A stretch of DNA of 64,000 bases from Candidatus Laterigemmans baculatus (GTDB lineage: Bacteria > Planctomycetota > Planctomycetia > Pirellulales > Pirellulaceae): positions 1 through 64,000 of the forward strand of contig NZ_WRPR01000023.1 in the NCBI RefSeq assembly GCF_010367455.1, read 5' to 3'. Positions 34,460 to 37,622 of the stretch are shown in pieces. The first letter of the stretch is position 1. Each line of letters begins with the position of its first letter. Position numbers and translations under genes: made by a program. Under the pieces are notes generated by a model that was given only the letters and a program-made list of their open reading frames with translations, had not been told where the DNA came from and searched no databases.

Positions 34460-34642
34460 CGTTCTGTCAGAAAACTCCCTCTCAGCATTACCCTCCCCCC
34501 GGGAGGGTCGGGCTCTCAGACCCGGGGAGGGCTTAGTGAATTCCGCCGCATGGAGGCTTTACGTCGCGGATCACCCTCCCCGCTCGTTCCTCGCGACCCT
34601 CCCGGGGGGTGGGTGACGTTATGGGTTTTCTGACAGAGCCTA
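34460..34642. repeat. MITE-like element, copy 4 (best preserved)
   Basis: Terminal inverted repeats TTCTGTCAGAAAACTCCC and, inverted from the right, GGCTCTGTCAGAAAACCC, extending inward to CCCTCCCCCCGGGAGGG-type blocks. Inner modules: B (GGGCTCTCAGACCCG) then A (GCTCGTTCCTCGCGA). The right end supplies the TAG stop codon of the minus-strand kinase gene. It sits between the halves of a REP-like palindrome (GAGCCGTAGGCGCTAGCG on the left, TACCGCGTGGCGG on the right). Confidence 0.88.
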
Positions 34643-36310
34643 CCGCGTGGCGGCGGATACTTCGCGGACGGTGCCGCTCATGCCGTCGCCGCGAATTTGC
34701 GCGAGCAGCTCCTGCAGGCAGACCGGTTTGACGACGTGGGCGTCGAATCCGGCTTCCTCGGTTAAGCGGCGATGCTCATCGCCGCCCCAACCGGTCAGTG
34801 CAATGATCTGGGGCTGGTCATTTCCGCAGCGGCGACGGATCTGCTTGGCGACTTCAAAGCCGTCCATCCCGGGCAGCCCGATATCGAGGACGATCGTGCG
34901 ATATTGCTTGCGGTCAATCGTGCGGAGGGCCATCGGGCCATCGTTGACGACGTCCGCCTCCATGCCGTGCAATCGCATCAGTTCGCGGAGACTCGTTCCG
35001 GCATCAACGTTGTCTTCGACGATCAGCACCGCTTCGCCCACCGCAGAGGCCGAACCCTGCGAAGCAAAGTCCATTTCGCTGACAGCGGACGCGTCGCAAG
35101 GGGCGACGCGATTCGCCATGTCCGCGGTTGGGATTTCACGCTGCTCGACTGCACTGTGCCTGCCTTCAGGGTGCCGTCCTTCAGGGTGCTGGGCCTCAAG
35201 AGGCTCGTCGCGCCGCGGTTCGGCAGCGGCGGCTGGCTTCGAGAGTGGCAGAGTGACCGAGAATCGGCTTCCGGTCCCGGGGCCGCGGCTGACCGCTTCG
35301 AGCGTACCGCTGTGCATTTCGACCAGATTGCGGACGATCGATAGTCCCACTCCGAGGCCTCCATACTCGCGGGTTCGGGAGGTATCGATCTGCGTGAAGG
35401 GCTCGAGGATCCGCTCCGCTTCGGACGGTGGAAATCCCATCCCGTTGTCGATCACTTGGATCACGGCCTGGCCATCGAGCATTTCGAGGCTCAAGGTGAT
35501 CCGGCCGTTCTTCGGAGTGTACTTGGCCGCATTGGAGAGCAGGTTTGCCGTCAGTTGCGTCAAACGGACGGAATCGCCGTGGACGTAGACCGGGGCCTTC
35601 GGAAGGATGTAGCAGAAGTTATGAAATTTCTGCTGCATCCATTCATCGGTTTGCTCGATTGCATCGCGGACAGATTCGCGAAGGTCGACAACCGCCAGTT
35701 TCAATTGGACGTTGCCTCGCAGTAACCGAGAGACATCCATCAGGTCATCCACCAACCGGACCAGGTGGGCCATTTGGCGGGCCATCACGCGGCGGTTTTC
35801 TTCGCGAACCGTGCCCGACTTCTCCCAAATCGCCAAGCTGGTTTTGATTGGCGCAAGTGGATTGCGAAGCTCGTGCGCGAGCAGCGCGAGAAACTCATCC
35901 TTGCGGTGATCCGCCTCTCGCAGCGAAGCGGTCAGACGCTCATTGTCCTGCAATCGCATTTCGGCCAACTTCCGCTGGTGATCGCTGGTGACAAAGAGCC
36001 CGATCGCCACGCAGTTGACGAGGACATAGATCGCGAGGCTGACGAGGTCATCCGGCGAGTCTACGATCAGACTCCACGTGGATGAGACGAAGAAAAAAAT
36101 TGCGGCCAACGTGCCCAGCAGCAGGGACAGTAGCGCCGGTCCCGCCCCCGCGATCCACGCCGTCAACAGGACCGACAGGTAGAACAAGCTGAAGGGGCAC
36201 TCCGAGCCGAGACTCGGCTGGAGCAACGACCGTACCCAGACGGCCGTCGCCGTGCTGATAAACGCCACGGTGTAGCGTGAAAGTACATTGTTCCAAACGT
36301 GCGGTGCCAT
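34640..36310 (-). CDS. Hybrid histidine kinase with DUF4118 membrane domain and receiver
   Basis: I chose the ATG at 36310 (556 residues); 36358 is an alternative. Four membrane helices form a DUF4118-like N-terminus (FLSVLL-type segments around residues 20-110, e.g. LSLLLGTLAAIFFFVSSTW). The HisKA domain has His146 in LLAHELRNPLAP. The ATPase has N and G boxes (LLSNAAKYTPKNG, DNGMGFPPSE, GLGVGLSIVRNLVE). A linker is followed by a receiver with Asp476 (IVLDIGLPGMDG). It lies directly downstream of the CsrA-receiver fusion gene in the same direction, so the pair is a probable phosphorelay. Confidence 0.92.
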   Translation of the reverse strand: MAPHVWNNVLSRYTVAFISTATAVWVRSLLQPSLGSECPFSLFYLSVLLTAWIAGAGPALLSLLLGTLAAIFFFVSSTWSLIVDSPDDLVSLAIYVLVNCVAIGLFVTSDHQRKLAEMRLQDNERLTASLREADHRKDEFLALLAHELRNPLAPIKTSLAIWEKSGTVREENRRVMARQMAHLVRLVDDLMDVSRLLRGNVQLKLAVVDLRESVRDAIEQTDEWMQQKFHNFCYILPKAPVYVHGDSVRLTQLTANLLSNAAKYTPKNGRITLSLEMLDGQAVIQVIDNGMGFPPSEAERILEPFTQIDTSRTREYGGLGVGLSIVRNLVEMHSGTLEAVSRGPGTGSRFSVTLPLSKPAAAAEPRRDEPLEAQHPEGRHPEGRHSAVEQREIPTADMANRVAPCDASAVSEMDFASQGSASAVGEAVLIVEDNVDAGTSLRELMRLHGMEADVVNDGPMALRTIDRKQYRTIVLDIGLPGMDGFEVAKQIRRRCGNDQPQIIALTGWGGDEHRRLTEEAGFDAHVVKPVCLQELLAQIRGDGMSGTVREVSAATR

Positions 36311-36386
36311 GAGCGGTCCTCGAACTCCCACGGGGCCCCGCGTCCGATGGCGGGGCATCTCAATCGAGCGGTTTCAGGACCGGAGC

Positions 36387-37169
36387 TCAGTGCACCGACG
36401 TCCGCAATGAACGGCCCGCCTCGCGCGGCGAGTCCAACGACGACAGTAGGGCGGGCACGTTGAGCGGCTTGGAGAACCATCCGTCCCAGCCATCGACGTC
36501 GGGACGCGTCTCCGGCCCCGCGTCCTCGCCGGTCACGGCATAGACGCGGAGGTTGCGGAGCCGCCCGTTGCCGCGGATTTGCGCTAAGGCCTCCAGCCCA
36601 TTGCACATCGGCATGTTGAGATCCATTAGCACGAAGTCCGGTAGCACGGAGGACTGCAACAGGATCTCGAGCGCCTCTTGACCATCGCGGGCAACGCTCA
36701 CATCAAAGCCGCGGGCGACTAACAAGTAGGAGAGCAGCATCCGCTCATTATCCGAATCCTCCACCGCCAGCACGCGTGGCCGATGGGAGGCATCGGCGAC
36801 GGCCGGTGGCCAAGCCGCGATGGGCTCTTCGTCACTTTCGCTCGAAGCCGCTTCGCCAATGATCTGCTCGAGCAGCTTTTCCGCTTCCTCGGTGTTCCCA
36901 CGCTCTAAATGCACCTGCAGAATCTGCAACTTCAACAGCAGCGAGTTCAGCTGGTTCCGCAGCGCGTGGGTCGTAGCCGTGTGCGGGACCGACGGATCGC
37001 TCGGCAGCAAGTCCGCGTCCATACCGACCTCGGCCCGGAGCACCTTGACCGATTCGGGGGCGGCGACGCCGACTTTGACCAGCCGACCGCTGACCTTCAG
37101 CACCCGTACGACAATTCCCAGATTGGGAAAAATGAGATCCTGCCCGGCTCGTCGAGATACGACTAACAT
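36387..37169 (-). CDS. CsrA-like RNA-binding domain fused to response-regulator receiver
   Basis: I chose the ATG at 37169 because GGAGG sits 7 bases upstream and the protein then begins exactly like CsrA: MLVVSRRAGQDLIFPNLGIV, then VKVGVAAPESVKVLRAEV (Arg45 matches the RNA-binding Arg44 of CsrA). 260 residues. Residues 68-105 form a helix starting HALRNQLN, like the H-box of histidine kinases but with no ATPase domain. Residues 131-245 are a receiver with Asp139 in EDSD, phospho-acceptor Asp183 (LMDLNMP), Thr213 and Lys234. It precedes the hybrid kinase gene by 76 bases (to 36310). Phosphorylation-controlled RNA binding is inferred. Confidence 0.85.
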   Translation of the reverse strand: MLVVSRRAGQDLIFPNLGIVVRVLKVSGRLVKVGVAAPESVKVLRAEVGMDADLLPSDPSVPHTATTHALRNQLNSLLLKLQILQVHLERGNTEEAEKLLEQIIGEAASSESDEEPIAAWPPAVADASHRPRVLAVEDSDNERMLLSYLLVARGFDVSVARDGQEALEILLQSSVLPDFVLMDLNMPMCNGLEALAQIRGNGRLRNLRVYAVTGEDAGPETRPDVDGWDGWFSKPLNVPALLSSLDSPREAGRSLRTSVH

Positions 37170-37329
37170 CCAATTGCCTCCTGCATCTCCGCCGAGCCGA
37201 CAAGTCGCTTCATGCGAAGATTTCGACGCCACAAGCCGTGGGTGTGGCTGCCCATCGTCCCCTGCCACAGTTCTTCGCGGACAGGTGCAGACGAGTGGTG
37301 GAATCGGTGCCGTCATCTGCACCGTCAAG

Positions 37330-37622
37330 TGGGCTTGATTCTACGGCTCGCCCATCGCCCCTTCAATGACCGACGCTCCGATTTTCGTAACCCAGCGGTG
37401 CGTACGTCAGCCTTTCCAGGCGGACTCTTACGCTCGAAAGGCCAGGCTGGAAAGCCTGACGCACGTGCAGGCGGACTGTCACGCCAGGCTCTGTCAGAAA
37501 ACCCTGAGCCGACGGCGCTAGCCGCGGGTGCTGCAGCGGAAATCCCGGGGCTGCGAGGCCCGAGGCTAGCGCCTACGGCTCACCCGAGGCTCGCAAGTCC
37601 AGGCTGGAAAGCCCGACGTATG
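37330..37622. repeat. Composite of CAGGCTGG hairpins, a solo MITE end and a REP-like unit
   Basis: In order: GTCAGCCTTTCCAGGC near 37405; GCCAGGCTGGAAAGCCTGAC at 37441; a lone MITE end GGCTCTGTCAGAAAACCC at 37488; a REP-like pair GAGCCGACGGCGCTAGCC ... GGCTAGCGCCTACGGCTC (37508-37580); and CCAGGCTGGAAAGCCCGACG near 37592. No gene is supportable in 37170-37628, so this is a repeat hot spot between the FAD oxidoreductase tail and the CsrA-receiver start. Confidence 0.7.

Follow-up and report, generated by a model that had tools for sequence, protein, structure and literature searches.

A CsrA-receiver fusion protein with a histidine helix pair recurs beside sensor kinases in relatives of Candidatus Laterigemmans baculatus

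The window analysed here is a stretch of 64,000 nucleotides from Candidatus Laterigemmans baculatus, and its positions 36387..37169 hold, on the minus strand, an open reading frame of 260 aa in which a CsrA domain, a DHp-like helix pair and a receiver domain are joined. The Pfam profile search scored the beginning of this frame as CsrA (PF02599, residues 1-48, 37026..37169 on the minus strand), with 44.1 bits and an E value of 2.1e-11 against a cut-off of 27 and with 47.2 bits in a genome-wide scan, in agreement with the initial annotation, which had proposed a CsrA-like start at this position. The NCBIfam equivalog cut-offs for csrA, the free form, are missed by a wide distance (37.5 and 36.4 bits vs 73 and 70.1), so this is not an ordinary CsrA. 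Its RNA-contact positions are R6 and R45, which we take to be the arginines of strands 1 and 5 (R6 and R44 in E. coli CsrA numbering). The receiver (Response_reg, PF00072) covers residues 133-244 (36438..36773, minus strand) with 58 bits, an E value of 1.3e-15 and a cut-off of 30.2, and is as complete as had been claimed: D138 of the acidic pocket, the phospho-acceptor D183 (36621-36623), T213 as the Ser/Thr and K234 as the Lys are all in place. Between the two lies the DHp-like (HisKA/Spo0B-type) helix pair, residues 64-108 (36846..36980, minus strand), with H68 at 36966-36968. Single-sequence structure prediction of the fusion was poor (pLDDT 44.7) and placed helices at 64-89 and 93-108. Pfam found no HATPase_c in the 260-aa protein, which is therefore not a kinase.

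The start codon follows a Shine-Dalgarno sequence, AGGAGG, which contains a GGA (37177..37182, minus strand). The initial annotation had chosen this start for its strong GGAGG site, and the choice is backed by the family, whose members begin at the same Met (ML stands at the protein start in 105 of 106); with both the site and the shared Met in view, a longer 313-aa form starting at TTG is unlikely. The next gene, annotated at first as a hybrid histidine kinase, is indeed one: Pfam finds a DUF4118 membrane domain, HisKA, HATPase_c and a receiver in 34640..36310 on the minus strand (alternative start at 36358), and an HPt domain gave no match there. By its position, this adjacent DUF4118-HK-REC kinase is the probable partner of the fusion.

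Several features lie on the other side of the gene. An imperfect inverted repeat at 37505-37582, with 33-nt arms that are 79% complementary and stand 12 nt apart, lies in the interval that separates the fusion gene from its upstream neighbour, an ORF that presumably encodes an FAD-dependent oxidoreductase, judging from its sequence. A short REP-like repeat at 37385-37480, likewise upstream of the fusion, has at least 37 matches in the genome, itself and some both-strand matches included. A sigma-54 promoter upstream, considered because of PMC12316311, was rejected: candidates occurred in 3 of 106 members and in 41 of 2120 random 300-base stretches, with no enrichment. The window had no Rfam match at gathering thresholds. 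In a plasmid collection, 1406 records matched some part of the query and 0 covered 80% of it in one place.

Proteins of the same layout turned out to be common among relatives. An insensitive pattern scan of the genome contigs with the single protein returned one relative, matching residues 130-256 only. A first search with residues 1-116 against 98 related genomes found many proteins of this layout, and the collection profile was made from 16 CsrA-plus-helix sequences and run on 392 genomes of the phylum and 199 genomes of the window's family. Since all 16 of these sequences carry the His, the profile favours His-bearing members, and the His count may be high. Among the matches listed in the phylum scan, 18 in 16 genomes lie in frames of 230 aa or more and extend to position 95 or beyond of 114; every one of these listed matches belongs to the window's class and none lies outside it. 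The scan of the window's family gave at least 119 matches in at least 88 of 199 genomes (position at least 93 of 114, frame at least 230 aa), a count of CsrA-plus-helix frames in which the receiver was checked only at fetched loci and to which one genus contributes six genes whose receivers are decayed.

We fetched 100 stretches and, together with the earlier loci, obtained 196 ORFs with a CsrA match and a usable start, 136 of them distinct. A receiver profile scores above 15 bits in 106 of these and stays below that mark in the other 30. The resulting set of 106 distinct proteins, drawn from 101 fetched loci overall, consists of the window protein, six proteins from the loci of the 98-genome search and the others, and it answers the suggestion that CsrA-receiver architectures be sought in planctomycetes; its members are related to one another, so that the counts below are not independent. 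Pfam recognizes CsrA in all 106 and Response_reg in 105 (E up to 1). When the family profile was compared with solved structures, the best 60 of 318 matches aligned best over the receiver.

The residues on which both activities would depend are strongly conserved. In the CsrA half, R6 and G34 are present in all 106 proteins, R45 in 105 and E47 in 100, and the Arg45 singled out at first as conserved is thus nearly invariant. In the receiver half, the counts are 100 for D138, 104 for D183, 103 for S/T213, 105 for W231 and 101 for K234. The helix part is somewhat more variable, with H68 in 91, R71 in 94 and N72 in 84. Taken together, the positions predicted to bind RNA and those predicted to serve phosphorylation are both kept in nearly all 106 members. 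The fused CsrA also has a signature of its own, F14-P15 (102 and 103 of 106), which is missing from the five other CsrA of the same genome. That genome has six CsrA matches, of which only the fusion lies in a long frame (317 aa) and the others lie in frames of 69-161 aa. One of its CsrA genes stands beside FliW on contig C114 (53980-54752), apart from the fusion.

The helix pair carries a conserved H-x-x-R-N motif and corresponds to the segment that had been described as a kinase-like H-box without an ATPase (HALRNQLN). For the window protein alone, the HisKA match is below threshold (13.5 bits vs a cut-off of 26.9) and so is its score for SPOB_a, a model whose matches are weak; across the family, 19 of the 106 proteins match Pfam HisKA with E values no higher than 1, the best being 1e-4. 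The comparison of profiles was clearer. When 31 helix segments (every third one among the 91 His-bearing segments) were aligned by hhalign with 23 of the 49 kinase DHp segments from the loci, the probability was 97.1 and the score 48.5, with His falling on His, and the controls stayed far lower: at most 17.9 for 100 column-shuffled profiles, 11.3 for a reversed profile and 12.7 for a coiled-coil control. TPR models also match a few helix segments, as they would short helical hairpins, and against solved structures the helix profile gave 16 weak matches, mostly to repeat proteins and designed helical bundles. By this profile comparison, the helix pair and the DHp domains of kinases are homologous. 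The fusion shares with Spo0B and with HisKA DHp domains a helical hairpin bearing H-x-x-R-N, whereas it has no ATPase-type domain after the helix pair; we take it to resemble Spo0B beyond the weak SPOB_a matches.

To describe the neighbourhood, we used the 103 of 106 proteins with usable flanks, three having been dropped for short loci. A simple longest-ORF script delimited the neighbouring genes and one phmmer query picked out the kinases, which makes the following numbers rough. In 59 of 103, a kinase or CheB-CheR protein (CheBR) stands no more than 600 bp away (38 CheBR, 10 DUF4118, 11 other HK); 6 more have one farther off, and for 38, some of them on truncated stretches, none was found. 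Of the 74 members whose flanks reach 4 kb or more on the upstream side and 3 kb or more on the downstream side, 44 have such a neighbour within 600 bp (30 CheBR, 8 DUF4118 and 6 other HK), 4 have one farther away and in 26 none was detected. A kinase match was obtained for 43 of these 44 nearest neighbours and, in 42 of them, a receiver match as well. By comparison, rough arithmetic from the 48 HATPase_c matches in the 5.76 Mb of the own genome gives about 4% adjacency expected by chance. In many related bacteria, then, this three-part protein stands next to a sensor kinase.

Six partner kinases were scanned with Pfam, which found HPt in none of them and a receiver in five (those of the window, L104, L099, L103 and L181:10391-14413). 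The neighbours at L104, L099 and L181:10391-14413 are CheB-CheR-PAS-HisKA-HATPase-REC hybrids of 1328-1386 aa, and the sixth, L181:4370-7663, is a CheB-CheR-PAS kinase without a receiver. Locus L181 (3451-15500) carries two copies of the fusion about 11 kb apart and additionally has, between them, a CheB-CheR-PAS protein without a kinase. Copies are likewise paired at L164, L157 and L168, with CheB-CheR-type genes or kinases between them, and in all four pairs the His is kept in one copy and lost in the other.

The type of kinase follows the relationships of the fusion. On a quick protein tree with several long branches, all ten members partnered with a DUF4118 kinase, the window protein included, fall in one branch of 14 rows, the remaining four having no partner found or truncated flanks. 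The DUF4118 or CheBR label requires 1 change on this tree, and 500 shuffles required 9.2 on average and 6 at the minimum; on this tree, then, kinase type tracks the clade of the fusion protein. Four of the ten DUF4118 kinases lie on the 5' side in opposite orientation and six lie downstream on the same strand. Given that side and orientation vary in this way, the link has survived rearrangement.

We consider it probable that the fusion is a response regulator with a CsrA-type RNA-binding output, fed by the adjacent hybrid kinase, although no kinase or CheBR was detected in the flanks of 26 of 74 members and it stands more than 600 bp away in 4 of 74. In such a system, whose phosphate flow, RNA switch with its direction, and targets we infer, the membrane-linked hybrid kinase would sense a signal and hand phosphate to the fusion, where it would end on Asp183. 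The DHp-like helix pair probably keeps the fusion dimeric beside the CsrA dimer, and His68, present in most members, may join the phosphate path. Phosphorylation would alter the geometry of the dimer and with it how tightly CsrA binds hairpins that carry a GGA in the leaders of mRNAs, and the translation of a set of targets would be switched without a decoy RNA of the CsrB type. The initial annotation had proposed a link between two-component signalling and post-transcriptional control. Its premise, that signalling acts directly on the CsrA protein, is favoured by the retained residues, the adjacent kinase and the agreement of kinase type with clade; the proposed switch in RNA binding is the part that stays at the level of a prediction.

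A more specific reading is that His68 takes part in a four-step phosphorelay, in which phosphate would pass from the kinase His to the Asp of the kinase receiver, then to His68 acting as a Spo0B-like phosphotransferase and finally to Asp183 of the same protein. The partners have the composition that such a relay would use, in that 42 of the 44 nearest ones within 600 bp combine a kinase with a receiver and, among the six scanned, none has HPt and five have a receiver; the fusion itself offers His68 in 91 of 106 members on a DHp-like helix pair without an ATPase. The pattern of losses bears on the same question. In a set of 112 proteins (the 106 members and six further proteins of one genus), D183, S/T213 and K234 are all intact in 101. 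The other 11 have lost at least one of them, in one case merely through a Lys-to-Arg change, and all 11 also lack His68, so that the His occurs in no member that lost any of these three sites. A Fisher test for coupled loss, in which D138 was counted too and relatedness was ignored, gave a p of 1.8e-7. However, the receiver-site trait amounts to about four changes on the tree, and a sign test on these as independent events is not significant (median p 0.25). Moreover, 10 of 112 lack only the His and retain D183, S/T213 and K234, which indicates that the receiver is usable without it, and three His-bearing members have D138 alone changed. The coupled loss is compatible with a His whose usefulness depends on a functional receiver, and is no proof of it. 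We therefore regard His68 as a relay step only tentatively, the alternatives being that the helix pair is a dimer module only or that it serves both purposes.

A feedback loop might be added to such a relay. The Shine-Dalgarno GGA of the window gene could lie in a short hairpin, UGC-AGGAG-GCA (37175-37185, minus strand), which is a family-level signal and is not the minimum-energy fold of the window leader. Among the 106 leaders, 94 had a usable GGA, and their 5' and 3' halves were swapped among members as a control. The Shine-Dalgarno GGA fell in short hairpins more often than expected from the swaps (7.91 vs 6.95, with 1 of 1000 swaps as high), also after near-copies had been removed (69 leaders, 7.76 vs 6.75, sd 0.27, 0 of 1000). 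A control set of 275 other gene starts looked random in composition and was not relied on. The window leader itself has another structure as its minimum-energy fold, with z values of -0.35 and -0.16 at two lengths, and the leaders of two other members folded no better than shuffles. Autoregulation through a CsrA hairpin is thus a weak lead at the level of the family. The full proposal, a complete His-Asp-His-Asp phosphorelay ending on a CsrA protein with its own Spo0B-like helix and with feedback through CsrA-type GGA hairpins that many members would have at their ribosome-binding sites, seems to us rather doubtful.

Two further readings leave the response-regulator arrangement a different meaning. 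In one, the fusion pairs with free CsrA and the receiver controls this pairing, so that the fused CsrA need not bind RNA as a homodimer. CsrA acts as a dimer, and the own genome supplies five other CsrA matches, one of them the gene beside FliW on contig C114; but R6 in 106 of 106 and R45 in 105 of 106 are what is expected of a domain that contacts RNA itself, and the F14-P15 signature sets the fused CsrA apart from the genome's five others, which makes this reading unlikely. In the other, which we judge slightly less likely still, the receiver is a phosphate sink or a kinase-docking module and CsrA binds RNA constitutively. It finds a precedent in six proteins of one genus (L139, L142, L151, L153, L154 and L159), in which the receiver active site and the His have decayed and R6 and R45 of CsrA are kept, whereas intact D183, S/T213 and K234 in 101 of 112 suggest regulated use, even if a sink would need these residues too. 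That an assembly or start-site artefact had led to a receiver gene being read together with unrelated upstream sequence is refuted by the recurrence of this three-part order, with CsrA N-terminal, in 106 distinct proteins, which come from 101 fetched loci.

As a rule, the global post-transcriptional regulator CsrA is under indirect control, exerted by decoy RNAs or by FliW. The FliW-CsrA partner switch is likewise a control of CsrA at the protein level, and differs in that FliW is found on contig C114 and not at the fusion locus. E. coli CsrA has, to our knowledge, no receiver. We disregarded its tabulation as an orphan response regulator in PMC12471899. The BarA-UvrY / CsrB-CsrA cascade is also a two-component control of CsrA activity, in which, according to PMC4682653, CsrA is sequestered by decoy RNAs that the regulator produces; the fusion differs in having receiver and CsrA in one chain. 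ANTAR response regulators (AmiR, NasR, PdtaR, the last described as a response regulator with an ANTAR domain in PMC12471899) likewise combine signal transduction with RNA binding as the output. Their ANTAR domain is C-terminal and works through antitermination, whereas CsrA is N-terminal in the fusion and a target of the GGA-hairpin type would be expected.

The initial annotation had called the system under-described, which is fair for its function within the open-access literature searched, but its combination of CsrA and receiver had been listed before. CsrA is named as a receiver output, beside ANTAR as an RNA-binding output, in the response-regulator classification of Galperin 2006, as cited in PMC2222644, and the CsrA-receiver combination was therefore already catalogued; those CsrA-output response regulators share the combination of receiver and CsrA and may be the same family. 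PMC1183210 does not mention CsrA. Within the open-access literature we found no functional study of a CsrA-receiver protein and no paper on CheB-CheR-PAS hybrid kinases in planctomycetes. To what was catalogued, the present analysis adds the DHp-like module, the agreement of partner kinase types with the protein tree, a picture of the distribution and a set of clear predictions.

Given this repeated pairing of the three-part protein with sensor kinases, the choice of mRNAs that are bound in these bacteria may be under the direct control of an outside signal. The covalently attached receiver would connect a sensor kinase directly, and in a testable way, to the translation of mRNA. Some of the large CheB-CheR-PAS hybrid kinases may likewise have their output in the fusion; we know of no output of this kind for them. 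If the His-Asp-His-Asp relay is true, it would carry a signal to the control of mRNA without a transcription factor or a decoy RNA.
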